Below are positions 1 through 52,056 of a DNA stretch of 64,000 nt, in pieces; the first letter of the stretch is position 1, and every line of letters starts with the position of its first letter. The notes below the pieces were generated by a model that was given only the letters and a program-made list of their open reading frames with translations, was not told where the DNA came from and made no database searches. The position numbers and the translations under genes are program-made. The stretch comes from Blastococcus tunisiensis (GTDB taxonomy: Bacteria > Actinomycetota > Actinomycetes > Mycobacteriales > Geodermatophilaceae): positions 80,191 through 144,190 of the forward strand of contig NZ_FOND01000015.1 in NCBI RefSeq assembly GCF_900112815.1, given 5' to 3'.

Positions 1-1577
1 GCGAACTCGTCGCCGCCGAGGCGGGCGACCAGGTCGTCCTCGCGGACGACGGTGTGCAGCCGGCGGGCCACCTCGACCAGCAGGTGGTCGCCGGCCTCGT
101 GCCCCGCGACGTCGTTGACGGCCTTGAAGCCGTCCAGGTCCAGGACCAGCAGGCACCGCGGCTCGACCGAGGGGGCGGTGAGCTCGCGGAACAGCAGCGC
201 GCGGTTGGGCAGCCCGGTGAGGTGGTCGCTGTAGGCCAGCCGCTCGAGCTCCCGTTCCCGGCGGCGGCGGGTGGTGACGTCGCGCAGGTAGAGCACCCGG
301 CGGCCGCTGCCGGGGCGCTCGGTGGAGGTGGCCTCCAGCTCGCGCGGGGAGCCGCCCGCCGGCAGGACCCGGAAGTGCAGCGGCGTCCCGGAGCCCGCGG
401 GGATGTCGGCGGTCGCGGACCGGACGGCGTCCCGGTCGGCGGGGTCGACCAGGTCGAGCAGTGACACCTCGTCGTCGGCGTCGGCGTCGAGGCCCAGCAG
501 GCTGCGGGCGGCGGGGGAGGTGAACAGCAGGCGGAACTTCGCGTCCATGATCGCGATGCCGTCGGAGCTGGCCTCGATGAGCCCGCGGAAGTCCTCCTCG
601 CTGCGGACCAGGTCCTGGGTCATCCGGCCGTCCTCGCGGATCCGCAGGACCAGCCGCAACGCCATGAGGCTGAGGACGACGGCGATGCCGATCTCGGCGG
701 CGGTGGAGTGCGAGTGGTCCTTCCACTCCATGAGGCCGATGGCGACCGGTAGCGAGAGCAGCGCTCCCACGACCAGCACCACGCCCACGGGGCTGACGAC
801 GGGGGCGGCGGCGCGGGCGGTGTGGTCGGCGAAGCGGCGGGGCGCGAAGGAGGCGGCGACGACGGCGGTCTGCAGGCCCATCGCGACCGCGACGTCGGAG
901 ATCGCCGTCCAGAAGGACGACGGGTCGACGATGGCCATGGCCTCGGCCACGCCGGCGGTGGCCTGCCAGGCCACCACGGCGATCATGACGCTGACCGAGC
1001 GGCGCAGCGCCGCCGTCGACACGGTGCACATCGCACCGGCGCCACCGAGCATCACGGCGGCGTAGGCGCCGTACATGAGGACGAGGGAGCGCAGGTCGTC
1101 CGGGGCGTTCGCCGGGTTGACCAGCGGGGTGCGGAGCACCTCGGTGACCACGAGCAGGGCGACGGTGATGACCAGGCCGTCGACGACGAGCGCCGGCCAC
1201 CGGGTGCGGCCGACCCGGCGGGCCAGCAGCCCGCAGATCACCAGCGGGGAGGCCGCGCCGCCGAAGAGCAGGACGTCGTCGAAGCCGAAGCCGTCGAGCT
1301 CCGGGCCCGGGAAGGCGGCCGCCAGCCACTGGGCGGTCATGAACAGCAGGGCGGCGTACCCGCCGATCCGCCAGGGCCGGCCGGCGGAGCGGGTCATCGG
1401 GCGGGCGATCCGGAAGATCGCCCACGCCGAGCTCGCGGCGACGCCGCCGAGGACGATCTCGTCCCACTGCATGCCGGTGCCGTCCGGCGCGCTGTGCGGC
1501 ACGGTGATGAGCAGGCCGAGGAGCGCCAGCGGCACCGTCCACCGGACGGAGCGGGGGATGCTCCGGCGGGGGATCAC
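1..1577 (-). CDS. Membrane PAS-GGDEF diguanylate cyclase (C-terminus cut by window edge)
   Basis: Partial gene, read from a GTG at 1577 whose bases overlap the TGA of the upstream gene (GTGA), so the two are translationally coupled. About 525 residues are visible. The first ~300 form a multi-helix membrane region; then comes a PAS domain beginning near VRSEEDFRGLIEASSDGI, then a GGDEF domain with the conserved LTGLPNRALLF entry and LDLDGFKAVND. The visible protein stops exactly after an intact GGDEF signature (bases 3-17), so the last third of the cyclase domain lies outside. Known for the family: condensation of two GTP to cyclic di-GMP at the membrane in response to a signal sensed by the N-terminus. 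An intact GGDEF implies an active cyclase. An EAL domain beyond the edge cannot be excluded. Confidence 0.88.
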   Translation of the reverse strand, partial: MIPRRSIPRSVRWTVPLALLGLLITVPHSAPDGTGMQWDEIVLGGVAASSAWAIFRIARPMTRSAGRPWRIGGYAALLFMTAQWLAAAFPGPELDGFGFDDVLLFGGAASPLVICGLLARRVGRTRWPALVVDGLVITVALLVVTEVLRTPLVNPANAPDDLRSLVLMYGAYAAVMLGGAGAMCTVSTAALRRSVSVMIAVVAWQATAGVAEAMAIVDPSSFWTAISDVAVAMGLQTAVVAASFAPRRFADHTARAAAPVVSPVGVVLVVGALLSLPVAIGLMEWKDHSHSTAAEIGIAVVLSLMALRLVLRIREDGRMTQDLVRSEEDFRGLIEASSDGIAIMDAKFRLLFTSPAARSLLGLDADADDEVSLLDLVDPADRDAVRSATADIPAGSGTPLHFRVLPAGGSPRELEATSTERPGSGRRVLYLRDVTTRRRRERELERLAYSDHLTGLPNRALLFRELTAPSVEPRCLLVLDLDGFKAVNDVAGHEAGDHLLVEVARRLHTVVREDDLVARLGGDEF

Positions 1578-3517
1578 GAGGCCACCGCCGGGAGCACGGG
1601 CGCCGGGACCGCGGTCCGGACGTCCCAGTCGCCGGCGGCCAGCCGGCCGGCCTCGAGCGGCCGGGCGAAGACGTAGCCCTGCAGGTACCGGTGGCCCATG
1701 TCGCGGAGCAGGGTGAGGACGGACTCGTCCGTCACGCCCTCGACGATCACCGGCAGGCCGAGGCTGGCCCCCAGCTGGAGCACCGCGCGGCACATGGCGC
1801 GGCGGGCCGGGTCGTGCTCGACGTCGGACAGGAAGTACTGGTCCATCTTCAGCACGTCGACCGGCATGCCGACGAGGTAGGCCAGCGAGGACCAGCCGGT
1901 GCCGAAGTCGTCGACGGCGATGCGGACGCCGAGCCGGCGCAGCACGGTGAGGTCCTCGAGGACGTGCGAGTCGTCGAGCAGCACCGACTCGGTGATCTCG
2001 ACGACCAGCCGCGACGCGGGGAGCCCGCTGGCCTCGAGGGCGCCGAGGACGTCGGGCACCAGCTCTCCGGTGCGGACCTGGCGGGCGGAGACGTTGACCG
2101 CCACCGCCAGCTCGGGATCGGCGAGCGCGGCGACGGCGGTGCACGCCTCGCGCAGCACCCACCGGCCCAGCTCGGTGATCAGCGGGGACTCCTCGGCCAG
2201 CGGGACGAACTCGGTGGGCGAGACCTCGCCGTAGGAGGGGTGCCGCCAGCGCAGCAGCGCCTCCACCGAGACGGTGCGGTGCATGACGACGTCGACGACG
2301 GGCTGGAAGACCAGCCGCAGCTCGCCGCGGGCCAGCGCGCCGTCGAGGTCGGTGCGCAGCGCGGCGCGGCGGTGCTCCTCCACCCGCAGGGCGTCGTCGT
2401 AGCGGTGCACCGAGCCGGGGCCGGCGGTGCCGGCGCTGCGCAGGGCCAGCTCGCCGCGGCGCAGCGCCTCGCCGGGGTCGACGTCGGGGAGTACGGCGGT
2501 CACGCCGGCGACGGCGGTGAGCCGCAGCGAGCCGCCGGGGATCGGCAGCGGCCCGACGGCGGCGACCAGGCGGGCGGCCAGGGTCTCGGCGTCGGCGATG
2601 CTGCCGTCGACGAGGACGACGAAGTCGCCGTCCCGGCCGCGGGCCAGCCAGTCCTCACCCCGCAGGGCGCGGGTGAGCCGGGTGGTCAGGGTGCGCAGGA
2701 CGGCCGTCTCGGTGTCGGGCGCGAGGACCGCCGAGGCCAGGCCGCTGATCCGCACGAGGGCGAGCGCGGCCGGCCGGGGATGGACGGCGCCCAGCCGGCG
2801 GACCAGCGCGGCCCGGTTGGGCAGGCCGGTGACCGGGTCGGTGAGCGAGAAGCCGGACAGGTCGGCGTCGGGGCCCGCGGCCGGTGCCTGCGCGGTGACG
2901 TCACGGCAGTACAGGACGAGCGCGCCGACGTCGGGGTCGGCGCGCAGGTCGCGGACGGTGGCCTGGATCAGCCGCCACCGGCCGTCGGCGTGCCGCACCC
3001 GCGCGGTGCGGACGGCGACCTCCTCGGGGCGGGGCCGGCCGGTGTCGAGCGCGCCGGGGAGCGTGCCGCGGTCGTCGGGGTGCACGGCGGCGAGCACCGG
3101 CCGGCCGAGCACGGCGGCCGGGTCGAGGCCGAGCAGGTCGGCGATGCCCTGGGAGGCGAAGGTGATGCGGAACCGGTCGTCGAGGATGACGACCGGGTCG
3201 ACGCTGCTCTTCACCAGCGTGCGGAAGGAGGACTGGCTGCGCTGCAGCGCGCCGCTCAGCCGGCGCTGGCGGGACCAGAGGGTGGCCTGCGCCGCGAGAA
3301 GGACGGTGAGCCCGGCCACCGCGAGGATGACGCGCGTTCCGCCGGACGCGGCCAGCAGACCGGCCACGACGGCGGCGACGGCTGCCCCCGCGGCGACGGC
3401 GGCCCCCGCGGCGACGGCGGCTCCCGCCGCGGGGACGGCGAGCAGCCCGGTGCGCCCGCCGGGGGGCGCGACCGGGCGCGCAGCCGCGGGCTGCCCCTGC
3501 ACGGGGGCGGTGGTCAC
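1574..3517 (-). CDS. PAS / degenerate GGDEF / EAL protein, probable c-di-GMP phosphodiesterase
   Basis: A 647-residue protein starting at GTG 3517; the frame stays open upstream to about 4510, but that part is low-complexity shadow of the opposite gene. Order: N-terminal membrane region (residues ~25-85) containing repeated AAGAAV blocks encoded by an 18-base repeat, PAS domain (~95-205), GGDEF-like domain (~225-385), EAL domain (~395-640). The cyclase signature has decayed to RDGDF near residue 294, so synthesis is unlikely. The EAL domain keeps VSVEALLRWRHP near residue 418, DDFGTGWSSLAYL and the YLQGYVFARPL end, so cyclic-di-GMP hydrolysis is expected. It overlaps the downstream cyclase gene by four bases, pairing a likely hydrolase with a likely synthase. 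Confidence 0.88.
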   Translation of the reverse strand: MTTAPVQGQPAAARPVAPPGGRTGLLAVPAAGAAVAAGAAVAAGAAVAAVVAGLLAASGGTRVILAVAGLTVLLAAQATLWSRQRRLSGALQRSQSSFRTLVKSSVDPVVILDDRFRITFASQGIADLLGLDPAAVLGRPVLAAVHPDDRGTLPGALDTGRPRPEEVAVRTARVRHADGRWRLIQATVRDLRADPDVGALVLYCRDVTAQAPAAGPDADLSGFSLTDPVTGLPNRAALVRRLGAVHPRPAALALVRISGLASAVLAPDTETAVLRTLTTRLTRALRGEDWLARGRDGDFVVLVDGSIADAETLAARLVAAVGPLPIPGGSLRLTAVAGVTAVLPDVDPGEALRRGELALRSAGTAGPGSVHRYDDALRVEEHRRAALRTDLDGALARGELRLVFQPVVDVVMHRTVSVEALLRWRHPSYGEVSPTEFVPLAEESPLITELGRWVLREACTAVAALADPELAVAVNVSARQVRTGELVPDVLGALEASGLPASRLVVEITESVLLDDSHVLEDLTVLRRLGVRIAVDDFGTGWSSLAYLVGMPVDVLKMDQYFLSDVEHDPARRAMCRAVLQLGASLGLPVIVEGVTDESVLTLLRDMGHRYLQGYVFARPLEAGRLAAGDWDVRTAVPAPVLPAVAS

Positions 3518-3570
3518 AGAGGTCTGATCGGGATGCCGGGGCCGGTGCCGCAGCCCTGTTCGGGAACTGT

Positions 3571-3584
3571 CACCCGATCGGGTG
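3571..3584. promoter_or_regulatory. 14-bp palindrome upstream of the EAL gene
   Basis: The sequence CACCCGATCGGGTG is a perfect palindrome lying 54 bases upstream of the GTG start of the EAL-domain gene. Position and symmetry suit a dimeric repressor or activator site. No regulator can be named, and the operator role is inference. Confidence 0.35.
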
Positions 3585-3612
3585 TGGGCGTCGGCCGTGG
3601 GTGGACCTCGCC

Positions 3613-3696
3613 GGGCCCAGGGTCGAGCCGGGCCCAGGGTCGAGCCGGGCCCGGGGGCGAGCGGGCCCCGGGGCGAGCTGGGCCCGGGGGTGAGCC
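3613..3696. repeat. Tandem ~17-base repeat array, about five copies
   Basis: Five consecutive copies of a unit close to GGGCCCAGGGTCGAGCC. The first two are identical and the later ones diverge to GGGCCCGGGGGCGAGC-like versions. Each copy contains a GGGCCC core. The array is non-coding and directly abuts the hairpin at 3704-3741. It may be a slipped-strand expansion; its role is unknown. Confidence 0.75.
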
Positions 3697-3703
3697 GGTG
3701 CAG

Positions 3704-3741
3704 CGGACGTTGAGCCGCGTCATGGCACGGCTCAACGTCCG
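3704..3741. other. Perfect 14-bp inverted repeat with 10-base loop
   Basis: Left arm CGGACGTTGAGCCG (3704-3717) and right arm CGGCTCAACGTCCG (3728-3741) are perfectly complementary around a 10-base loop. No run of T follows on either strand, so it is not a standard intrinsic terminator, although actinobacterial terminators often lack T-tracts. Alternatives are an operator for a dimeric regulator or a structured 5' leader of either divergent gene. Confidence 0.7.
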
Positions 3742-3952
3742 GTGGTGGGGCTCCACCTGCCGGCGTCCTCGTCCGTGCGGGGCCGTCAGTCACCGAATGG
3801 GGGCGGACTCGGGGTGTGTGCCATCCGGGGCGCGGGTAGCAGACGCGCCAGTTCCGCATGACCGCTGCGGGCGCGCCCCGTTCCTGCCAGGAGCCGCGCC
3901 CGGGGCGAGCCGGGTGGCGGGGATCCGCCGCAGAGGTCCGGTGGGGGAGATC

Positions 3953-5185
3953 ATGAGCGAACCGGGTGGGCGGCACCGCGTGCCGTCCGACGCGCACGAC
4001 GAGACGCCCGCCGCGGGCCGGCACCGCGCACCGGAGGACGACGAGGCGCGGGTGGCCGTCGTCCGGGAGCGGGCGGTCCCGGCGCTGTGGGGGGCGAGCG
4101 GCACGCTGGCGGTGGCCGCGGCGGCGGTCCTGCTGGTCGTCGGGCAGCCGGAGTCGGGGGGATGGCCGGGGGCGGCGCCGCCGGGCTACGGCCTGCCCGA
4201 CGTGGCCCCGGACGGGCCGGGTGACGGACGGCCGGACGACGGGGGACCGGGGGACGACGGGGGACCGGGGGACGACGGGGCCGGTGGGTCCGCCGTCACG
4301 CCGGTGGGCCGGCAGCTGACGCCGGGTGTCGGCGGGATGGGCAGCAGCTGGCCCGGCGGCGCGGGGACGTCGTCGTTGCGCGAGGCCGCGCTGGCCGCCA
4401 CGGCGGCGGTGTGCGCCGCGGTGGGGGGACCGTCCGCACCCGGTGCCGCGACCCCCGGTGCCGGAGCTGGGTCGGGGGCGCGACCGTCGGCGGGGACGCC
4501 CGCCGCGCAACCGGCGCCCGTGGCCCAGTCGGGCTCCGTCGCGCCGACTGGTCCGGCCGCGGTGGATCAGCCTGCGGCGCCGGCACCGGGCGGGGCGCCG
4601 CAGGGCACCGTCGGCTCCCCGCCGCCGGCAGCCGGGGCGCCGTCCACCCCGCCGGGGGGCGACGTGCCGGCTCCCGGGCCGGGACCGGTCGCCGACGTGG
4701 TGGAGCCGGCCGCGGAGGTGGTCGAGCCGGTGACCGACGGCGTCGAGCCCGTGGTCGAGGCGGTCGAGCCGGTCGTCGAAGCGGTGGATCCCGCTCCCGA
4801 GGTGGCGGAGCCGGTGCCCACCCCGGTGCCCCGGGCGGTGGACCCGGTCGTGGAAGCAGTGGAGCCGGTGGTGGAGGCCGTGGAGCCGGTGACCGCGCCG
4901 GTCGCCCAGGCGGTGGAGCCGGTGGTGGAGGCCGTGGAGCCGGTCACGGCTCCGGTCGAGCGCGCCGCAGAGCCGGTGGTGGAGGCGGTGGAGCCGGTGA
5001 CCGCGCCGGTCGCCCAGGCGGTGGAGCCGGTGGTGGAGGCCGTCGAGCCGGTCACGGCTCCGGTCGAGCGCGCCGCAGAGCCGGTGGTCGAGGCCGTCGA
5101 GCCGGTCGTCGAGGAGCTGCCCGGACCGGCCGATCTGCCGGTCTCCGGAGCCACGGAGTCACTGCCCGTCCAGCTGCCCGGCTGA
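3953..5185 (+). CDS. Single-pass membrane protein with Glu/Pro/Val repeats
   Basis: A 410-residue protein from ATG 3953, with a purine-rich GGGGGA a few bases upstream. It has a charged cytoplasmic N-terminus (~45 residues), one hydrophobic helix around GTLAVAAAAVLLVVG, a Gly/Pro/Asp-rich linker, then a C-terminal half built from VEPVVEAVEPVTAPV-like repeats. Family and function are not recognised. The repeats are acidic and regular, suggesting an extended stalk or wall-spanning segment. Nothing resembles a catalytic domain or LPXTG anchor. It lies divergent to the c-di-GMP genes, so shared control is possible. Two other proline-rich single-pass proteins and the tail of a third occur in this window. 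Confidence 0.72.
   Translation: MSEPGGRHRVPSDAHDETPAAGRHRAPEDDEARVAVVRERAVPALWGASGTLAVAAAAVLLVVGQPESGGWPGAAPPGYGLPDVAPDGPGDGRPDDGGPGDDGGPGDDGAGGSAVTPVGRQLTPGVGGMGSSWPGGAGTSSLREAALAATAAVCAAVGGPSAPGAATPGAGAGSGARPSAGTPAAQPAPVAQSGSVAPTGPAAVDQPAAPAPGGAPQGTVGSPPPAAGAPSTPPGGDVPAPGPGPVADVVEPAAEVVEPVTDGVEPVVEAVEPVVEAVDPAPEVAEPVPTPVPRAVDPVVEAVEPVVEAVEPVTAPVAQAVEPVVEAVEPVTAPVERAAEPVVEAVEPVTAPVAQAVEPVVEAVEPVTAPVERAAEPVVEAVEPVVEELPGPADLPVSGATESLPVQLPG
4889..5104 (+). repeat. 108-bp tandem duplication inside the Glu/Pro/Val repeat protein
   Basis: Bases 4889-4996 are repeated almost exactly at 4997-5104, a period of 108 bases (36 codons) that keeps the frame. The unit contains two shorter VEPVVEAVEPV-type half-repeats with alternating APVAQ and APVERA linkers. 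Near identity at DNA level, including synonymous positions, points to recent duplication. Confidence 0.85.
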
Positions 5186-5248
5186 CCGGGCCGACGACCA
5201 CTCCTCCGGTGGGCAGACGGCCCATGCCCGCTGTGGCAGCCTTCCGGT

Positions 5249-5434
5249 GTGGCGAAGTTCCTGGCCGTGCTGCTGGCCGTGGTGGTGCTCGTGGAGCTGG
5301 TGCTCGTCATCGGGGTGGCCGGTGCGCTGTTCTGGATCGGCGGCACCGGGACGATCGTCGCCGGCGCGGCGATGCTCGTCGTCGCGGGAGCCGGCGGGGT
5401 GCTGGCGCTGCGGGCGATGCGCGCGCCGGGGTGA
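5249..5434 (+). CDS. Small membrane protein, two predicted helices
   Basis: A 61-residue protein from GTG 5249, almost entirely hydrophobic. It shows two membrane segments (AVLLAVVVLVELVLVIGVAG and IVAGAAMLVVAGAGGVLAL) around a short glycine-rich turn, and a basic C-terminus (RAMRAPG). Codon third positions are strongly G/C. No family is recognised. Its stop overlaps the GTG of the next small gene, suggesting a two-gene unit. Confidence 0.6.
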   Translation: MAKFLAVLLAVVVLVELVLVIGVAGALFWIGGTGTIVAGAAMLVVAGAGGVLALRAMRAPG

Positions 5435-5733
5435 CCGCCGTCATGGCGCCGTCGCCCGATCGCGTACCGGCCTGCGTGTTCCCGATCACGGTGCTTGCCC
5501 ACCGCCCCGCGACGGCGGAAGCTTCGCTCGTGATCGGTGACGCCGAGGTGTTGGATCCAGCTCAGCGCGACGCCGACCGCGTCGTCCTCTGCCGCTGCGG
5601 CGGTGCGGGCCGCGTGGTCCATGCGCCGGTCCACCGGCCGGGCGAGCCCGAGACCTACGTCCGCGCCACCTTCACCTGCACGTGGGACCGGTCGGGTCCG
5701 CACGAGCCCCTGCTCCCGCCCCGGCGCCGCTGA
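5431..5733 (+). CDS. Hypothetical ~100-residue protein
   Basis: Reads from GTG 5431, overlapping the TGA of the preceding gene; ATG 5443 is an alternative start. Nearly every codon ends in G or C, as expected for a real gene here. The protein is about 100 residues with a CRCGGAG stretch and FTCTWDRSGPHEP near the end, perhaps a small metal- or nucleic-acid-binding fold. No family recognised. Antisense frames are also open here, so confidence is moderate. Confidence 0.5.
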   Translation: MTAVMAPSPDRVPACVFPITVLAHRPATAEASLVIGDAEVLDPAQRDADRVVLCRCGGAGRVVHAPVHRPGEPETYVRATFTCTWDRSGPHEPLLPPRRR

Positions 5734-5884
5734 CGCCGGCGCGCCGGGGAGCAGTTATCGGCCGGCCCCGGCGCGGAGATAACGGATGCCCGACGTCGTG
5801 TCCCATCCGTCCCCCGAGTCACATCCGTCGACCGGCCTCCCCCGCCCGTCAGTAGCTTCGGTGCCTACGACGAGAGGGGAAGCC

Positions 5885-6019
5885 ATGGCCAGCAACTGGC
5901 GCTCGGACCACCACCACGTCGACGCTGTGCGCAAGTGCTTCACCGTCGGCTTCTGGCTGCTGGCGGCCGGCGCGTCCGCCGTGCTCGGCCTCGACCTGGA
6001 GATCGACGCCCGGTCGTAG
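5885..6019 (+). CDS. Small membrane protein (44 residues)
   Basis: Starts at ATG 5885 behind GAGAGGGGAAGCC, a good ribosome binding site. The product has a His-rich polar start (SDHHHVDAVRKC) and one hydrophobic helix (FWLLAAGASAVLGLDL). It ends with TAG at 6017-6019. Function unknown. The normal TAG ending matters here because TAG is read as selenocysteine in fdhA. Confidence 0.5.
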   Translation: MASNWRSDHHHVDAVRKCFTVGFWLLAAGASAVLGLDLEIDARS

Positions 6020-8449: not shown

Positions 8450-11400
8450 GTGAAGACCTGGCTCGACGCGTGGCCGGTGTACCGGCAACTGACCGGTACC
8501 GATCCCCTGGGTCGCGGCAAGGCCGCGCGCAGCAAGGCGACCGATGCCACGGTCTCCCGCACCGCCACGGCCGACAAGGTCGTGAAGAGCGTCTGCCCGT
8601 ACTGCGCGGTCGGCTGCGCGCAGAACGTCTACGTGAAGGACGAGGCGATCGTCCAGATCGAGGGCGACCCGGACTCCCCGATCAACCGCGGCCGGCTGTG
8701 CCCCAAGGGCAGCGCGAGCAAGCAGCTGGTCACGAGCCCGAGCCGGGTCACCACGGTCAAGTACCGCCGTCCGTACGCCACGGACTGGGAGGACCTCGAC
8801 CTCGACACCGCGATGGAGATGATCGCCGACCGCGTCCTGGAGGCCCGCAACAAGGGCTGGCAGGACGAGGACGGCGGCGAGCGGGTCAACCGCACCATGG
8901 GGATAGCGAGCCTCGGAGGGGCGACCCTCGACAACGAGGAGAACTACCTCATGAAGAAGCTCTACAGCGCCCTGGGCGCGATCCAGATCGAGAACCAGGC
9001 CCGGATATAGCACTCCGCGACGGTGCCCGGTCTGGGTGCCTCGTTCGGCCGTGGTGGCGCAACCAACTTCCTGGAAGACCTGGCGAACTCCGACTGCATC
9101 GTCATCGAGGGTTCGAACATGGCCGAGTGCCACCCGGTGGGCTTCCAGTGGGTGACGGAGGCCAAGGCGCGCGGCGCCAAGGTCATCCACATCGACCCGC
9201 GGTTCACCCGCACCAGCGCGATCGCCGACCTGCACGTGCCGCTGCGCATCGGCACCGACATCGCCTTCCTCGGCGGGCTGATCCGCTACGTGCTCGACAA
9301 CGAGCTGTACTTCGCGGACTACGTCACCGCCTACACGAACGCCGCCGCCCTGGTCGGTGAGGAGTTCGTCGACGCCGAGGACCTCGACGGCCTGTTCTCC
9401 GGGTTCGACCCGGCGAACAACGTGTACGACGAGACGAGCTGGCAGTACGAGTTCGAGGAGGCGCCGGAGTCCGGCGCCGACGACCCGGCCGAGGCCGCCG
9501 AGCAGGAGCGCAGCGAGCAGGACCCGGCCGTGAAGAAGTCCGACCGCGCCCAGGCGGCCGGCAGCGGCGGCCCGCCGATCCCGGCCAAGCCCAAGCGGGA
9601 CGAGACGCTGCAGCACCCGCGGTCGGTGTTCCAGATCCTCAAGCGGCACTTCGACCGCTACACCCCGGAGATGGTGTCGGAGGTCTGCGGCATCGAGCCG
9701 GAGGTCTTCGAGCAGGTCGCTGCGTGGGTGACCAGCAACAGCGGCCGCGACCGGACGACGGCGTGGGTGTACTCGGTGGGCTGGACGCAGCACAGCGTCG
9801 GCGCGCAGTACATCCGCACCTGCTCGATCCTGCAGACGCTGCTGGGCAACATCGGCCGCCCCGGTGGCGGCATCCTCGCCCTGCGCGGGCACGCCAGCAT
9901 CCAGGGCTCCACCGACGTCCCGACGCTGTTCAACCTGCTGCCCGGCTACCTGCCGATGCCGCACGCCCACCAGCACCACGACCTCGAGGAGTACGTCGCC
10001 GACGCGGCCGGCAAGGCCGGCTTCTGGGGCAACAAGCCCGCCTACATGACCAGCCTGCTCAAGGCCTGGTGGGGCGAGGCGGCGACGGCGGAGAACGACT
10101 ACGCCTTCGACTACCTGCCGCGGATCAACGGCGACCACAGCTCCTACCGGACGATCACCGACATGATCAAGGGGAAGGTGTCGGGCTACTTCCTGGTCGG
10201 CGAGAACCCCACGGTCGGGCACCCGAACAGCCGGATGAACCGCTTCGGGCTGGCCAACCTCGACTGGCTGGTCGTCCGCGACCTGCAGATGATCGAGTCG
10301 GCGACCTTCTGGAAGGAGGGCCCGGAGATCGAGACGGGGGAGATGTCCCCCGAGACGATCGGCACCGAGGTCTTCTTCGTCCCGGCGGCCACGCACGTGG
10401 AGAAGGAAGGCACGTTCACCCAGACCCAGCGGGTGCTGCAGTGGCGGCACAAGGCCGTCGAGCCGCCGAACGACGCCCGCAGCGACCTGTGGTTCTTCTT
10501 CCACCTGGGCCGGATCCTGCGCGACCGGCTGAAGGACTCGACCGATCCCCGCGACCGGCCGCTGCTCGACCTCACCTGGGACTACCCGGTCGAGGGCGAG
10601 ACGGCCGACCCCAGCGCCGACGCCGTGCTGCGCGAGATCAACGGCTTCGGCCCCGACGGCGAGCTGCTGAACAGCTACATGCAGATGAGGGACGACGGCT
10701 CGACGTCCGGCGGCTGCTGGATCTACACCGGCGTCTACGCCGACGGGGTCAACCAGGCCGCCCGCCGGAAGCCGGCCAAGGAGCAGGGCGCCGTCGCCTC
10801 GGAGTGGGGCTGGGCCTGGCCGCTCAACCGCCGGATGCTTTACAACCGCGCCTCGGCCGACCCCGACGGCAAGCCGTGGAGCGAGCGCAAGAAGTACGTC
10901 TGGTGGGACGAGGACGCCGGCGAGTGGACCGGCCTGGACGTCCCCGACTTCGAGAAGACCAAGCGGCCGGACTACGTGCCCCCGGACGGCGCCAGGGCGC
11001 AGGACGCCCTCGCCGGCAACGACCCGTTCGTCATGCAGGGCGACGGTAAGGCGTGGCTGTTCGCGCCGGCCGGCGTCGTCGACGGGCCGCTGCCCACGCA
11101 CTACGAGCCGGCCGAGTCCGTCGTCGAGAACGGCCTGTACAAGCAGCAGGCCAACCCGACGCTGGAGATCATCGAGGGCCCGTGGAACCGGGCCAACCCG
11201 AGCCGCAGCGACGTCTTCCCGTTCGCCGTCACCACCTACCGGCTGACCGAGCACCACACCGCCGGCGGGATGAGCCGCACGCTGCCCTACCTGGCCGAGC
11301 TCCAGCCGGAGTTCTTCGTGGAGGTCAGCCCGGAGCTCGCGGAGCTGCGCGGCCTGACGCACAACGACTACGCCACGCTGGTCAGCGCGCGGACGGCGGT

Positions 11401-11740
11401 CGAGGCGAAGGTGCTGGTCACCGAGCGGGTGCGGCCGATCAGGCTGCGCGACGGCACCGTCGTCCACCAGATCGGCATGCCGTACCACTGGTCCTACACC
11501 GGCATCTCCACCGGCGACGCCGCCAACGACCTGCTGGGCATCGTGATGGACCCCAACACCCACATCCAGGAGTCGAAGGTGTCCACCTGCGACATCCGGC
11601 CGGGCCGGCGCCCCCGCGGGCCGGAGCTGCTGGAGTTCGTGGAGGCCTACCGACGGCGGGCCGGGGTGGACTCGGGCCGGGTCGGGGTGAACGGCCGCGA
11701 TCCCGTGGACGTCGCCGCGGGCGAAGGGTCCGCGCTGTGA
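8450..11740 (+). CDS. fdhA: Formate dehydrogenase alpha subunit with selenocysteine encoded by TAG
   Basis: One 1096-residue reading frame interrupted only by TAG at 9008-9010 (residue 187). A naive reading splits it into 8414-9010 and 9023-11740. Chosen start is GTG 8450 (VKTWLDAWPVYRQL), matching the N-terminus I recall for actinobacterial relatives; GTG 8414 is the alternative. The N-terminus holds a [4Fe-4S] motif (Cys 49, 52, 56, 84) followed by the bis-MGD molybdopterin fold. Residues flanking the TAG, ENQARI-U-HSATV and then FGRGGATN, align exactly with the selenocysteine site of E. coli-type formate dehydrogenases, with the catalytic His next. Downstream, AECHPVGFQW and the C-terminal molybdopterin dinucleotide-binding domain are intact. 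It oxidises formate to CO2, passing electrons to FdhB. The frame after TAG has no further stop for 910 codons, so it is not a decayed gene. Confidence 0.92.
9008..9010 (+). other. In-frame TAG selenocysteine codon of fdhA
   Basis: TAG stands where other formate dehydrogenases have UGA (Sec) or a Cys codon: preceding residues ENQARI, following residue His. A hairpin with the bacterial SECIS apical loop begins downstream at the standard distance. TAG ends other genes in this window (for example at 6019, 39375 and 63564), so it has two meanings here, depending on the hairpin. Confidence 0.9.
9018..9043 (+). promoter_or_regulatory. Bacterial SECIS element within fdhA
   Basis: RNA hairpin: 7-bp stem 9022-9028 with 9034-9040 (five Watson-Crick and two G-U pairs), apical loop GGUCU at 9029-9033, a bulged C at 9021 and a further 3-bp helix 9018-9020 with 9041-9043. 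The loop motif GGUCU is that of the E. coli fdhF SECIS. There are 18 bases between the recoded codon and the loop, the same count I obtain for E. coli fdhF. It should bind SelB carrying Sec-tRNA. Confidence 0.85.
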
Positions 11741-11852: not shown

Positions 11853-12923
11853 ATGACCTCGATCAGCTCGGCGAGCCCGGGGCTCAGCCAGAACGATCCG
11901 AAGAACCGGCTGTTCGGGCCGCTGCCCGACGTGTCGGCCGAGGCCGGCTACGTCGAGGAGCACCCCAAGCGGGTCGGCTTCTTCACCGACACCTCGGTCT
12001 GCATCGGCTGCAAGGCCTGCGAGGTGGCCTGCAAGGAGTGGAACACCCTCCCGATGGACGACGCGGACGGCAAGCGCGACGCCATCGGGATGTCGGGGAT
12101 GTCCTACGACAACACCGGCATGCTCGGCGCCAACTCGTGGCGGCACGTGGCCTTCATCGAGCAGACCCGCGTGGTCGACCTGCCGATGCCGGCCGTCGGC
12201 CTGCCCGGGGCGAAGAACCGGCCGGACGTGCCGCAGCTGGGAGCACCGGACACCGGGGACGTCGACACCACCGCCAAGGCGCAGGCCAGCGTGCTCAACG
12301 CCGAGGCGCTCGCCGAGTTCGACCCGCAGACCGGCCAGACGGGGGCGGACAAGCAGATCCGCTGGCTGATGAGCTCCGACGTCTGCAAGCACTGCACGCA
12401 CGCCGGCTGCCTCGACGTCTGCCCGACCGGGGCGCTGTTCCGCACCGAGTTCGGCACCGTCGTCGTCCAGCAGGACATCTGCAACGGCTGCGGCTACTGC
12501 GTGCCGTCCTGCCCGTACGGGGTGATCGACCAGCGCAAGGACGACGGCCGGGTCTTCAAGTGCACGATGTGCTACGACCGGCTCACCGACGGGCTGCAGC
12601 CGGCGTGCGCCACGGCGTGCCCGACGCAGTCCATCCAGTTCGGCGACCTCGACGAGCTGCAGGCCCGGGCCGACGCCCGGCTGGCCACGCTGCAGGAGCA
12701 GGGCGTGGAGACGGCGCGACTGTACGGGCGGGACGAGGACGACGGCGTCGGGGGAGCGGGCGCGTTCTTCCTGCTGCTCGACGAGCCTGAGGTGTACGGG
12801 CTGCCGCCGGACCCGGTCGTCACCACCCGGGACCTGCCGGCCATGTGGAAGGCGGCCGCCACCGGCGCGGCGATGATGGTGGGGGTCGCGCTGTCGGCGG
12901 TCCTCGGCTCGCGGAGGCGCTGA
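11853..12923 (+). CDS. fdhB: Formate dehydrogenase iron-sulfur (beta) subunit
   Basis: A 356-residue protein from ATG 11853, with GAAGGA upstream. It is a poly-[4Fe-4S] ferredoxin: the first cluster motif is CIGCKACEVACK (Cys 50, 53, 56, 60). Further motifs CKHCTHAGCLDVCPTG, CNGCGYCVPSCPYG and CTMCYDRL...CATACPTQ provide four clusters in all, as in FdnH/FdoH-type subunits. A C-terminal hydrophobic segment (TGAAMMVGVALSAVLG) could anchor it to the membrane. It passes electrons from FdhA to the membrane subunit. The stop is one base from the next start, so the genes are in one operon. Confidence 0.93.
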   Translation: MTSISSASPGLSQNDPKNRLFGPLPDVSAEAGYVEEHPKRVGFFTDTSVCIGCKACEVACKEWNTLPMDDADGKRDAIGMSGMSYDNTGMLGANSWRHVAFIEQTRVVDLPMPAVGLPGAKNRPDVPQLGAPDTGDVDTTAKAQASVLNAEALAEFDPQTGQTGADKQIRWLMSSDVCKHCTHAGCLDVCPTGALFRTEFGTVVVQQDICNGCGYCVPSCPYGVIDQRKDDGRVFKCTMCYDRLTDGLQPACATACPTQSIQFGDLDELQARADARLATLQEQGVETARLYGRDEDDGVGGAGAFFLLLDEPEVYGLPPDPVVTTRDLPAMWKAAATGAAMMVGVALSAVLGSRRR

Positions 12924-12924
12924 C

Positions 12925-13965
12925 ATGACGCAGGGAATCACCACGCCCGGCGCCGGCTGGCGGCGCGCGGACGGGCCGCCGGCGCAGAAGAGCCAGAAGC
13001 GGCGCCGCAAGGGCGGACGACGCGGGCGCAACGCCGAGATCGCGATGGTCGACGAGGCCGAGTTCACCTCCTACTACGGCCGGCCGATCATCAAGCCGCC
13101 GGTGTGGAAGACCCCGGACGTGCCGCTGTACCTGTTCCTCGGTGGAGCCGCGGGTTCGTCGGCGGTGCTGGGCGCGATGGCGGACCTGTCCGGGCGGCCG
13201 GCGCTGACCCGGGCGGCGCGGCTGGTGGCCGGTGGTGGGTCGATCGCCTCGGTGGGCTTCCTGATCCACGACCTGGGTCGGCCGGAGCGGTTCCTGCACA
13301 TGCTGCGGGTGTTCAAGCCGACGTCGCCGTTGTCGGTGGGCACCTACATCCTGTCGCCGTTCAGTGCGGCGGCCGGGGCGACGGCGGCGGTGGAGCTGCT
13401 GGGCTGGTTCCCGCGGCTGAAGCGGTTCGGCGGGATCGTGGGCGGGCTGTTCGGGGGGCCGATGGCCACCTACACGGCGGTGCTGCTGAGCAACACGGCG
13501 GTGCCGTCGTGGCACGAGTTCCACACCAAGCTGCCGTTCGTGTTCGCCGGTTCGGCGATGGCCGCCGGTGGGGGGCTGTGCATGGCCTTCACGCCGGTGG
13601 AGGAGGCGGGCCCGGCGCGGAAGATGGCCGTCGCCGGCGCTGCGCTCGAGCTCGCGGTGGTGCACCAGGTGGAGAACGACGAGAGCATCGTCTCCGAGCC
13701 GTACCACGAGGGGCGGGCCGGGAAGCTGATGCGGGCGGCGAGGACGTGCACCGCCGCGGGCGCCGGTCTCACCGTCGTGGCCGGGCGTACCCGGCTGGGG
13801 GCGGTTGCGTCAGGAACGCTCCTGGCGGCCGGCTCGCTGCTCACCCGCTTCGGCGTCTTCGACGCCGGCATGGCCAGCGCCCGCGACCCGAAGTACACCG
13901 TCGTCCCGCAGCGGGAGCGGCTCGCGGCCCGGGAGAACGGGCACGCGCCGTCGGTCAGCCGCTGA
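12925..13965 (+). CDS. nrfD: NrfD-like membrane subunit of formate dehydrogenase
   Basis: A 346-residue protein. A basic, polar N-terminus (KRRRKGGRRGR) is followed by the characteristic FTSYYGRPIIKPPVWK entry and about eight membrane helices. NrfD/PsrC family proteins carry electrons from an iron-sulfur subunit to the quinone pool without haem. HDLGRPERFLHMLRVFKPTSPLS is the conserved loop of the family. One spacer base separates it from fdhB. This replaces the cytochrome b gamma subunit of FdnI-type enzymes. Confidence 0.9.
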   Translation: MTQGITTPGAGWRRADGPPAQKSQKRRRKGGRRGRNAEIAMVDEAEFTSYYGRPIIKPPVWKTPDVPLYLFLGGAAGSSAVLGAMADLSGRPALTRAARLVAGGGSIASVGFLIHDLGRPERFLHMLRVFKPTSPLSVGTYILSPFSAAAGATAAVELLGWFPRLKRFGGIVGGLFGGPMATYTAVLLSNTAVPSWHEFHTKLPFVFAGSAMAAGGGLCMAFTPVEEAGPARKMAVAGAALELAVVHQVENDESIVSEPYHEGRAGKLMRAARTCTAAGAGLTVVAGRTRLGAVASGTLLAAGSLLTRFGVFDAGMASARDPKYTVVPQRERLAARENGHAPSVSR

Positions 13966-13980
13966 GGCACGGCCGGCCGA

Positions 13981-14397
13981 TCAGGTCCCCTCGATGATCT
14001 CGAGGCGGACCCCGAGACCGGTGTAGGTACCCAGGGCGCGGGCGTCGCGGGTGGCCAGCGGAACGTCACCCGCCCGCGCTGCGAGACCCACCAGGGCGTC
14101 GTAGACGGCGCCCCCGGCGATCCCCAGCGGAGCGAGCACGCGCGGTAGGCCGGTCGATTCCGCGGCCGGCACCTCGAGCACGGTGTCGAAGGTGGCCTCC
14201 AGCAGCCGGGCGGCATCGTCCCCTGCCACGCGGGCGTCCCCGGGGAGACGGGTGAGCACCGAGTACGTCTCGGCCAGGGAATGGGTCGTCAGGACCAGCG
14301 ACCGCCCGGCCGCGTGGCGCCGGACGGCGGTGTGTGCGGTGTGGGAGCGCAGCAGCAACGGAACGGCGGCGCTGGTGTCGAAGGCCAGTCGCGTCAC
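13981..14397 (-). CDS. vapC: VapC-family PIN-domain toxin
   Basis: A 138-residue protein starting at GTG 14397, overlapping the antitoxin stop by four bases. The PIN fold's acidic residues are visible: FDTSAAVPLL (first Asp), LAETYSVLTRLP (Glu), YDALVGLAARAGDVPLATRDARA (last acidic positions). VapC toxins are Mg2+-dependent RNases acting on tRNA or rRNA. It is convergent with the formate dehydrogenase operon, separated by 15 bases. Confidence 0.88.
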   Translation of the reverse strand: MTRLAFDTSAAVPLLLRSHTAHTAVRRHAAGRSLVLTTHSLAETYSVLTRLPGDARVAGDDAARLLEATFDTVLEVPAAESTGLPRVLAPLGIAGGAVYDALVGLAARAGDVPLATRDARALGTYTGLGVRLEIIEGT

Positions 14398-14654
14398 CGG
14401 CGGCCGGAGTCCAGGAGCCCGAACACGTCGTCGTCGGTGACCGCGGTGGACGAGTCGGCCACCAGCGCACCGTCGACCTCGACGAGCCGCGCCGTACGCC
14501 CGGCCGGGATCAGCTGCAGGCCTGCTCCGTATCGGCTGACGTCGAGGGTCGAGCCGGGCGTGAGCCCCAGAGCGTCCCGCAGGGCCTTCGGCACGACGAT
14601 CCTGCCGAGGCTGTCGATCGTGGTCCGCACTGGTGGAACGCTACCAGTGAACAT
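14394..14654 (-). CDS. vapB: AbrB/MazE-type antitoxin of the VapC pair
   Basis: An 86-residue protein from ATG 14654. The N-terminus VRTTIDSLGRIVVPKALRDALGLTPGSTLDV is a SpoVT/AbrB swapped-hairpin DNA-binding domain. The C-terminal DDDVFGLLDSGRR probably covers the toxin active site. A downstream GTG (VRTTID) is an alternative start. It should repress the pair and neutralise VapC. Confidence 0.87.
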   Translation of the reverse strand: MFTGSVPPVRTTIDSLGRIVVPKALRDALGLTPGSTLDVSRYGAGLQLIPAGRTARLVEVDGALVADSSTAVTDDDVFGLLDSGRR

Positions 14655-39379: not shown

Positions 39380-40801
39380 TTGGCGGGGACCGCGGCACTG
39401 AGCCGTCTCGAGCAGGCGACCACGGTCGCGGTCGCTGGCGGAGTGGTGTTTCTCGTGGGTCTGGGGCAGCCCGGTCCGGCGGTGGCTATGACCGTCCTTG
39501 CGACGGCCGGCATGGCCATCCGTCTCGGGCACCTGCAGATCACCGCCGTGGCTCCGGTCCTCGCCCTCGGGCTCTTGGCGTTCAAGCCACTGATCGATCT
39601 GTTCTGGGGCGTCTCGTTCGGCGAAGTCCTGGGGCAGACCCTCAACCTGCAGACGGTCGCGGCACTTGCGCTCATCGGCCTCGCCGTAGTGGCGCTGATC
39701 CAGGTGCCTCGACCGGTGAACCTGCCCGAGGCGGCCGCGTTCGCGTTGTGCGGAGTAGCGGCCGTGTCGTGCCTGGTGAGCTCGACGACGTCCGCCATCG
39801 CCGAACTCTTGCGTCTATTGGCCGCGCTCGCTGCCGTCTTCGTGTCGCGGATCGTCTTCACGACCCCGGAGCACCTGCGGCGGCTTATCCGGCTCTTCGT
39901 CGCCTCGACAGCGGTGCCCGTTGTGCTGGCCCTCCTGCAGGCGGCCGGATTCCTGTCGTTCCAACGACAGGAGTGGCAGGCGGGCGCCTACGTCGGGCGG
40001 GCCTCTGGGCTGTACGAGCACCCCATCAACCTGGTGCTGTTTCTCGTGATGGCGATACCCGGCGCCCTGTACCTGCTCGCGGTGGAGCGGGGGACGTTGC
40101 GGCGGGTGGCCTACGTCGCCTTCCTCGCATGCGGGGGCGCGGCGCTGCTTCTGACAACTCATCGGGCCGGACTCGTAGCCGGTGCCCTCGTCCTGGTCGG
40201 CTGGTTCCTGCTCTCCCGGCGCCCCCGGCTCATCGCCGTCGCCCTCGGCGGCCTCGCCCTGCTGGTCGTGGTGCTGTGGTCGCAGTTGGCCGCGCTCTTC
40301 CACGCCGCCCTGGCCAGCCCTACGTTCCTGCGGGGAAGGGGCCCCATCTGGACGGCGTTCGTCGACGGGTGGCTCGACGGCGGCCCCGCGGGATGGCTCC
40401 TCGGCAGCGGCTTTCCGTACGTGACGAGTGATGTCCCGCTCCTCGGCAGCTTGGTCTCCGAGGAGCCGCACAACGACTTCCTCCGCGTGCTCGTGACCTA
40501 CGGCATCGCAGGCCTGACCTGCTATTTGCTCCTGCTGGGCTCGATCACACTGTCGTCCTGGCGGTTGGTGCGGCACGGATCCGGGGAAGCCGCGCTCATT
40601 GGCCGGGCCGTGGTCCTCGTCGTGCTGGCCGTCGTGGTGTTGAGCCTGACTGCAGAACCACTCCGTTACCCCTCGGGCACGTGGCTGCTGCTCGCCCTCG
40701 GCACCTACGTCGCTGGGCGCGGCCCCACGTCGGGACAGGATCGCTCCGCTGTGTCGTCCGAGGCACGCGCATCTGCTCAGGAGCTGCACAGTGTCCGGTA
40801 G
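39380..40801 (+). CDS. O-antigen ligase/polymerase-like membrane protein
   Basis: About 473 residues. The start is uncertain: the frame opens at TTG 39380 with no clear ribosome site. About twelve helices. GRASGLYEHPINLVLFLVMAIP, LLTTHRAGLVAGALVLVGW and SEEPHNDFLRVLVTYGIAGL (the His of the large loop) are the Wzy/WaaL family pattern. It should polymerise or ligate lipid-linked repeat units outside the membrane. The final ~30 residues are polar. The stop overlaps the GT4 gene. Confidence 0.85.
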   Translation: MAGTAALSRLEQATTVAVAGGVVFLVGLGQPGPAVAMTVLATAGMAIRLGHLQITAVAPVLALGLLAFKPLIDLFWGVSFGEVLGQTLNLQTVAALALIGLAVVALIQVPRPVNLPEAAAFALCGVAAVSCLVSSTTSAIAELLRLLAALAAVFVSRIVFTTPEHLRRLIRLFVASTAVPVVLALLQAAGFLSFQRQEWQAGAYVGRASGLYEHPINLVLFLVMAIPGALYLLAVERGTLRRVAYVAFLACGGAALLLTTHRAGLVAGALVLVGWFLLSRRPRLIAVALGGLALLVVVLWSQLAALFHAALASPTFLRGRGPIWTAFVDGWLDGGPAGWLLGSGFPYVTSDVPLLGSLVSEEPHNDFLRVLVTYGIAGLTCYLLLLGSITLSSWRLVRHGSGEAALIGRAVVLVVLAVVVLSLTAEPLRYPSGTWLLLALGTYVAGRGPTSGQDRSAVSSEARASAQELHSVR

Positions 40802-51396: not shown

Positions 51397-52056
51397 CTAG
51401 CCGCCCGCCCAGCCCAGCGTCACCGCAGGGCTGGCGAAGGCCTCCGCGTAGTCGGAGCGGCACTCCATCCCGCGCAGCCGGGCGAGAGCGGTGAACGTGT
51501 CCTCGCGGAACCAGTCGTGCCCGCGCTGGGACGCGTAGTGCTCGTGCAGCAGGGCGTACTTGCGCCGGACCAGCTCGGGAGTCAGTGGCCAGTAGGTCTG
51601 GGGCCGCGTCGCGCCCAGGTCGCCGTCGTACTTCGGGATCTCGTAGTGCAGCACCAGGTGGTCGCGGAACGCCGTCCGGACCAGTTCGCCCAGCAGTCGG
51701 TGGTCCTGGTGGGCGTCGGCGGGGGAGGGGGCGAGGACCACGTCGGGCGTGCTGCCGGCGGCGAACTCCTGCAGCAGGTCCTTGACGGCGCTCCAGTGGC
51801 CGGGCATGCGCCCGTCGGGCAGCCCGCCGAACCGGACGGCTGGGACCGCCGGCGCGCAGAACGCGGCGAGGGCGGCCCTAGCCTCCACCTCCCGGTCCGG
51901 GGTGGAGGAGGCGACCAGGACGTCGACCCGTTCGAGCGCACCGCGCCCGGCCAGGTCCAGCAGCAGCCCGCCGCACCCGATCTCCACGTCGTCGCAGTGC
52001 GCGCCCAGCAGTGCCAGCCGCAGCGGGCGTCCCGGTCCGAGAGGGAGGCGTAGCAC
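51397..52056 (-). CDS. PIG-L family deacetylase
   Basis: A 219-residue protein from GTG 52056. Zinc motif GAHCDDVEIGCGG (AHxDD) near residue 18; PSPADAHQDHRLLGELV supplies the third ligand. The family removes acetyl from N-acetyl sugars (as in mycothiol or GPI-like pathways). The ending YAEAFASPAVTL is typical. It ends with TAG one base from the convergent rfbF stop. It follows the nucleotidyltransferase gene at 52060 by three bases, so they share an operon. Confidence 0.9.
   Translation of the reverse strand: MLRLPLGPGRPLRLALLGAHCDDVEIGCGGLLLDLAGRGALERVDVLVASSTPDREVEARAALAAFCAPAVPAVRFGGLPDGRMPGHWSAVKDLLQEFAAGSTPDVVLAPSPADAHQDHRLLGELVRTAFRDHLVLHYEIPKYDGDLGATRPQTYWPLTPELVRRKYALLHEHYASQRGHDWFREDTFTALARLRGMECRSDYAEAFASPAVTLGWAGG

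Follow-up and report, generated by a model that had tools for sequence, protein, structure and literature searches.

The in-frame TAG codon at positions 9008–9010 of the window (the whole stretch of 64,000 nucleotides of Blastococcus tunisiensis DNA analysed here) is almost certainly read as selenocysteine (Sec): the genome has a tRNA-Sec with a CUA anticodon together with selA, selB and selD, and a conserved predicted SECIS hairpin lies behind the codon. Since this TAG of the formate dehydrogenase gene fdhA occupies the position of UGA or Cys codons in other fdhA genes, and the anticodon of the tRNA-Sec matches it, UAG is predicted to stand for Sec. The tRNA and the sel genes support the reading already given in the preliminary description of this DNA, under which Sec would be inserted at this codon.

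From its putative start, the GTG at 8450, to the TGA that ends it at 11740, the fdhA frame contains no stop codon other than the TAG, which on re-reading was found in frame between ENQARI and HSATV, as described earlier. The 185 residues upstream of the codon (from 8453) correspond to positions 2–185 of the NF041513 model (335.8 bits) and the 909 residues downstream to positions 187–1067 (1564.5 bits), the part behind the codon alone exceeding the cut-off of 1400. The product has Fe4S4, Molybdopterin and Molydop_binding domains, and its alignment with solved selenocysteine formate dehydrogenases runs across the codon, the TAG column being the Sec/Cys column of the solved enzymes. These matches bear out the claim of an intact fdhA frame with the TAG at the catalytic Sec site. 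The long open frame reported behind the codon also stands, but its length, given as 910 open codons, is 909 sense codons followed by the TGA stop.

Table 1. Position of fdhA, its TAG codon and neighbouring genes in the window, with the two ordinary genes that end in TAG
Feature	Position	Strand	Basis
fdhA, formate dehydrogenase catalytic subunit, TAG predicted to be read as Sec	8450..11740	+	NF041513 on both sides of the codon; 1096 aa
TAG, Sec position, residue 187 counted from GTG 8450	9008..9010	+	codon alignment of homologs
predicted bacterial SECIS hairpin, loop GGUCU 9029-9033	9022..9040	+	conservation and covariation
iron-sulphur subunit, fdhB-like	11853..12923	+	Fer4_11; best NCBIfam TIGR01582, below cut-off
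NrfD-like membrane anchor subunit	12925..13965	+	PF03916, PF14589
ordinary gene ending in TAG, O-antigen ligase-like	39380..40801	+	Wzy_C match
ordinary gene ending in TAG, PIG-L deacetylase-like	51397..52056	-	PIG-L match

Apart from fdhA, 27 gene-like ORFs were picked in the window, crudely, by third-position GC; they end in TGA (25) or TAG (2) and never in TAA. The two that end in TAG have Wzy_C and PIG-L matches, in agreement with the earlier remark that TAG also ends ordinary genes here. In this small and crude sample UAG is the rarer of the two terminators seen, which may have made its recoding easier. ARAGORN made two tRNA calls in the window, neither bearing on Sec; a tRNA-Arg call at 10987-11080, within the fdhA coding sequence, is probably spurious. 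An Rfam scan of the window at the gathering threshold gave zero matches. Two small adjoining genes on the minus strand at 13981-14654, one coding for a PIN-domain protein and the other for a MazE-like antitoxin, likely form a toxin-antitoxin pair.

Selenocysteine genes and the predicted SECIS hairpin

The genome containing the window (5.04 Mb in 43 contigs, 99.7% complete) has a tRNA-Sec with the anticodon CUA at G000:C26:210373-210464, which scores 69.1 bits against the cut-off of 47 of RF01852. The same model gave six weaker matches in this genome, corresponding to tRNA-Ser (three), tRNA-Tyr, tRNA-Leu and tRNA-Met; one of them, a tRNA-Ser, also exceeds the cut-off with 49.7 bits. To one side of the CUA tRNA-Sec lies selD and to the other selA and selB, all scoring above their curated cut-offs (389.2, 418.6 and 270 bits, respectively), and selD is of the Cys type (GGCACK). 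A search of the genome for these very genes had been proposed in the preliminary description, which named as contrary outcomes a genome without sel genes or with a UCA tRNA-Sec only; what the genome holds is a CUA tRNA-Sec adjoined by selA, selB and selD. The nearest fdhA and SelA sequences likewise suggest a Blastococcus. The fdhA gene and the sel genes are on separate contigs. A second fdhA, on a different contig, also has a TAG, and two UGSC-family genes have one in-frame TAG each, at the U of UGSC.

In the proposed mechanism, SelA would convert Ser-tRNA-Sec(CUA) into Sec-tRNA-Sec with selenophosphate supplied by SelD, and SelB would bind the GU loop of the hairpin and bring the Sec-tRNA-Sec to the UAG, where it would compete with release factor 1. 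At a UAG that lacks the hairpin, as at the ends of the Wzy_C and PIG-L genes, termination would still take place. We infer the delivery by SelB and the competition, and also that the mature enzyme of this strain contains Sec.

The hairpin spans bases 12–30 past the Sec codon and has seven pairs and the loop GGUCU, with AGUCU in its place in a single TGA row. Among the 53 TAG rows of the homolog alignment (the window counted in), none of the seven pairs is broken in more than one row, while in the TGA rows six pairs are kept in 13 of 13 and the outermost is broken in 10 of 13. The Cys rows, 13 in number, have lost the loop letters, and their mean hairpin energy is -4.9 instead of about -11 kcal/mol. 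Compensatory changes preserve the hairpin in the TAG and TGA homologs, whereas the Cys homologs are without it. The covariation score was computed on 43 rows, 31 of them distinct, which comprise the 13 TGA rows in full, a single UGSC row and 29 TAG rows out of 53; it is 0.294, compared with 0.109 after shuffling; none of 500 shuffles scored as high, and the slid alignment reached at most 0.088. The energy z-scores of the hairpin are weak, at -0.65 and, in a second run, -1.15 for fdhA and -0.06 for a UGSC copy. In the UGSC genes the loop GU is found at +20/+21, the same register as in fdhA, in 20/20 TAG copies and 0/7 Cys copies. The hairpin behind the TAG is predicted to act as a SECIS element.

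Distribution of the TAG codon and of the CUA tRNA-Sec

The fdhA homologs considered here are the best 80 of 215 loci, 78 of which include the Sec position (L066 and L071 begin downstream of it). The codon at this position is TAG in 52 loci, TGA in 13, TGC in 12 and TGT in 1, and nothing else. The TAG is hence not there by chance, since 78 of the 80 loci hold the position and all of these have TAG, TGA or a Cys codon. The alignment with UGA- and Cys-containing homologs, which had been suggested beforehand, places the TAG in the TGA/Cys column. According to their record titles, the TAG loci belong to Blastococcus, Geodermatophilus, Modestobacter, Trujillonella, Goekera and other Geodermatophilaceae, membership of this family being confirmed for Trujillonella and Goekera. 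One TAG locus is titled 'Bacillus sp. AZ43', in a title that itself says UNVERIFIED. The TGA loci are from other actinobacteria, including Micromonospora, the kin of Actinoplanes, Spongiactinospora and Ornithinimicrobium.

The tRNA-Sec was searched for in 38 of the genomes carrying the 80 fdhA loci. All 25 named genomes with TAG in fdhA have a CUA tRNA-Sec, as do the genomes of L066 and L071, for which the codon lies outside the fetched locus, and all 8 with TGA have a UCA tRNA-Sec; of the three with a Cys codon, one has the UCA form and two have no match above the cut-off. This UCA form in every TGA-fdhA genome read is one reason why it is most improbable that UAG encodes pyrrolysine here, or is read by a general amber suppressor, in place of Sec. 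ARAGORN does label the CUA tRNA 'Pyl', a label given from the anticodon, but the tRNA exceeds the cut-off of the tRNA-Sec covariance model and lies within the selD-tRNA-selA-selB block, and among the 78 homologs the site never has a Lys codon. Among the 25 TAG genomes, only Geodermatophilus sp. LHW52908 has a UCA tRNA-Sec besides the CUA one. The metagenome-assembled G021 has two different CUA tRNA-Sec genes (L131, L114) and may be two strains binned together.

A scan of 112 Geodermatophilaceae genomes gave 124 fdhA matches, spread over 100 genomes and over 9 of the 12 genera. Every match that covers the site (116/116) has TAG, and the remaining 8 are fragments starting past it. A lone stop interrupting an otherwise open fdhA frame could also come from a pseudogene or from a sequencing error, but the same TAG is found in 52 of the 78 homologs, from other assemblies, as well as in all 116 family matches, with the surrounding enzyme conserved, and this recurrence across independent genomes refutes such a reading, to which we attach almost no weight. 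The TGA counted inside four fdhA matches ('1 TGA, 1 TAG') is a plain terminal stop, 902-911 codons past the Sec codon, and the fifth TGA-containing match is a broken copy from G117. In G117 neither fdhA copy (L215, L247) has the Sec stretch, and each has a frame break at that place; two similar copies were probably collapsed in the assembly, though the loss may be real; the TAG in the other copy is the last codon of the match, near a contig end, and not the Sec site. For the UGSC family, 33 named genomes gave 25 matches in 13 genomes, 18 with one TAG, 7 with none and 0 with TGA.

The CUA tRNA-Sec pattern (CTAAAGCC in 76/76 matches) differs from the UCA pattern (TTCAAAACC in 8/8 matches) in the anticodon and in the loop-closing pair, which goes from U-A to C-G. 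The exact UCA pattern was found in 8 of the 112 family genomes: LHW52908, plus seven that belong to the genera g5, g6 and g7. In the UCA genomes of these genera no fdhA match was obtained at E 1e-150, and their Sec codon is presumably UGA, judging by the anticodon. One family genome with a UCA tRNA-Sec has a translation-GTPase gene with one in-frame TAG (G112:C4:7469-8629), which scores 200.7 bits with the selB model, below the cut-off. Among 397 genomes drawn from across the order, the 75 family members in the draw, which include no genome of g5-g7, all have the CUA pattern, as does 1/322 of the others. This single case outside the family (G268:C194, L232) comes from a metagenome-assembled genome of another family of the order; its contig, 4.8 kb long, carries sel genes like those of the Geodermatophilaceae, and the partial SelA encoded there falls within the CUA clade; the contig is probably mis-binned. 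A SelA tree built from 40 rows, in which certain genomes appear twice, shows the CUA form as one change with a support of 100/100, and the four UCA rows of g6 and g7 sit outside the CUA clade. The g5 contigs yielded no SelA. The tree fixes no order of g6 and g7 relative to two other actinobacterial UCA rows, and no early branching is therefore claimed for them. The outgroup and the wide spread of the UCA form suggest that it is the older state.

Two tRNA-Sec types in Geodermatophilus sp. LHW52908

On balance, LHW52908 (G026) appears to have two Sec codons, UAG in fdhA and UGSC, read by a CUA tRNA-Sec that was inherited, and UGA in an AhpD-like gene (as CxxU), read by a UCA tRNA-Sec that was imported, with one SelB for both. 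The UCA tRNA and its client gene, flanked by transposase genes, would then form a minimal mobile Sec cassette that uses the SelA, SelB and SelD of its host. Both tRNA-Sec types are present in this one genome, in which fdhA and the UGSC gene have TAG, and the only SelB above the cut-off is encoded near the CUA tRNA-Sec. The UCA tRNA-Sec (L139:1169-1263, minus strand) is the top match of the named-genome search, with 81.8 bits. At 0.3 kb from it and divergent (contig G026:C17) lies the AhpD-like gene (L139:1579-2157, plus strand), with a TGA at 1870-1872, the second position of a CxxC motif. Its product exceeds the cut-off of TIGR01926 and resembles the NF041238 '(seleno)protein' family, below the cut-off of that model; PMC13188914 counts CxxU proteins of the AhpD-like family TIGR01926 among the selenoproteins.

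The other possibility, which we hold to be a real though lesser one, is that contamination or a dead import accounts for both the UCA tRNA-Sec and the TGA-split AhpD-like gene, the cell using UAG alone. The two lie between transposase genes in a stretch of low GC content (60-64% at 1501-6000), on a 69 kb contig that elsewhere has mostly 69-83%, and the organism from which this contig comes has no independent confirmation. Among the 112 family genomes, the AhpD-like gene with TGA is found only in LHW52908, five others having distant matches without a stop. The hairpin past the TGA, with a GUU loop two bases nearer than that of fdhA, is weak by energy (z -0.49). Against a dead import stand the high score of the UCA tRNA-Sec and the rating of the assembly (100% complete, 1% contaminated), together with the length of the contig. 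A further argument against it is provided by the 120 AhpD-like homologs listed out of 233, in which the TGA column has 60 Cys, 59 Trp and 1 Leu and the first Cys of CxxC is kept in all 59 Trp rows. The Trp would most simply be a TGA translated with code table 4, and this pattern is what is expected if UGA is conserved there and was so translated.

As for the origin of the two genes, a plasmid search for the AhpD-like gene gave only matches below 60% identity. Plasmids of Tsukamurella and Arthrobacter (L248-L251) carry selB, selA, a UCA tRNA-Sec, selD and formate dehydrogenase genes with TGA, and the occurrence of such sets on plasmids makes the import of a UCA tRNA-Sec plausible. The Arthrobacter plasmid is typed as conjugative, and a Tn3-family transposase adjoins its sel/fdh set. 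These sets share with the present genome the same genes and a similar hairpin past the Sec codon; they differ in combining UCA with TGA, whereas the present genome combines CUA with TAG and has fdhA off the sel contig.

Relation to known systems and significance

UAG-encoded selenocysteine was reportedly described in Geodermatophilus and Blastococcus by Mukai et al. 2016 (Angew Chem 55:5337). The present case is like theirs in the family, the formate dehydrogenase gene, the UGSC proteins and the CUA tRNA-Sec; what is added is another genome with four UAG-Sec genes, the presence of TAG in fdhA across 9 of the 12 genera and the UCA form in other genera of the family. The excerpts of the Secmarker paper (PMC5330540) describe CUA tRNA-Sec in three Geodermatophilaceae genomes and Sec-TAG in FDH, UGSC and one AhpC, and credit the discovery to an earlier paper, which we take to be Mukai et al. 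2016. The preliminary description, which had named UAG-Sec as reported for Geodermatophilus and Blastococcus, was right in substance, and these excerpts agree with it. Our results are like theirs in the CUA tRNA-Sec of Geodermatophilaceae and in the FDH and UGSC genes with Sec-TAG, and differ in the genome with both CUA and UCA (LHW52908), which those excerpts do not describe. UAG-Sec in Geodermatophilaceae is also borne out by PMC5133445, recoding of UAG to Sec is reported in general in PMC10778597, and Mukai et al. 2016 is among the references of PMC7609411. UAG-Sec in this family is thus already known in kind; it is ordinary for the Geodermatophilaceae and striking in general. A genome with two Sec codons was not found among the listed titles and abstracts of the open-licence PMC literature, and as far as these searches show, the new element is LHW52908 with both tRNA-Sec types and with TAG and TGA genes.

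Annotation is likely to split or drop UAG-Sec genes, which makes selenoproteins of the Geodermatophilaceae easy to overlook; the Blastococcus genome examined here has four UAG genes. With at least three UCA genera beside the CUA genera, the states before and after a codon change can be compared within this family, and the genome with both types offers a test of two Sec codons sharing one SelB and of whether tRNA-Sec genes travel with their client genes.
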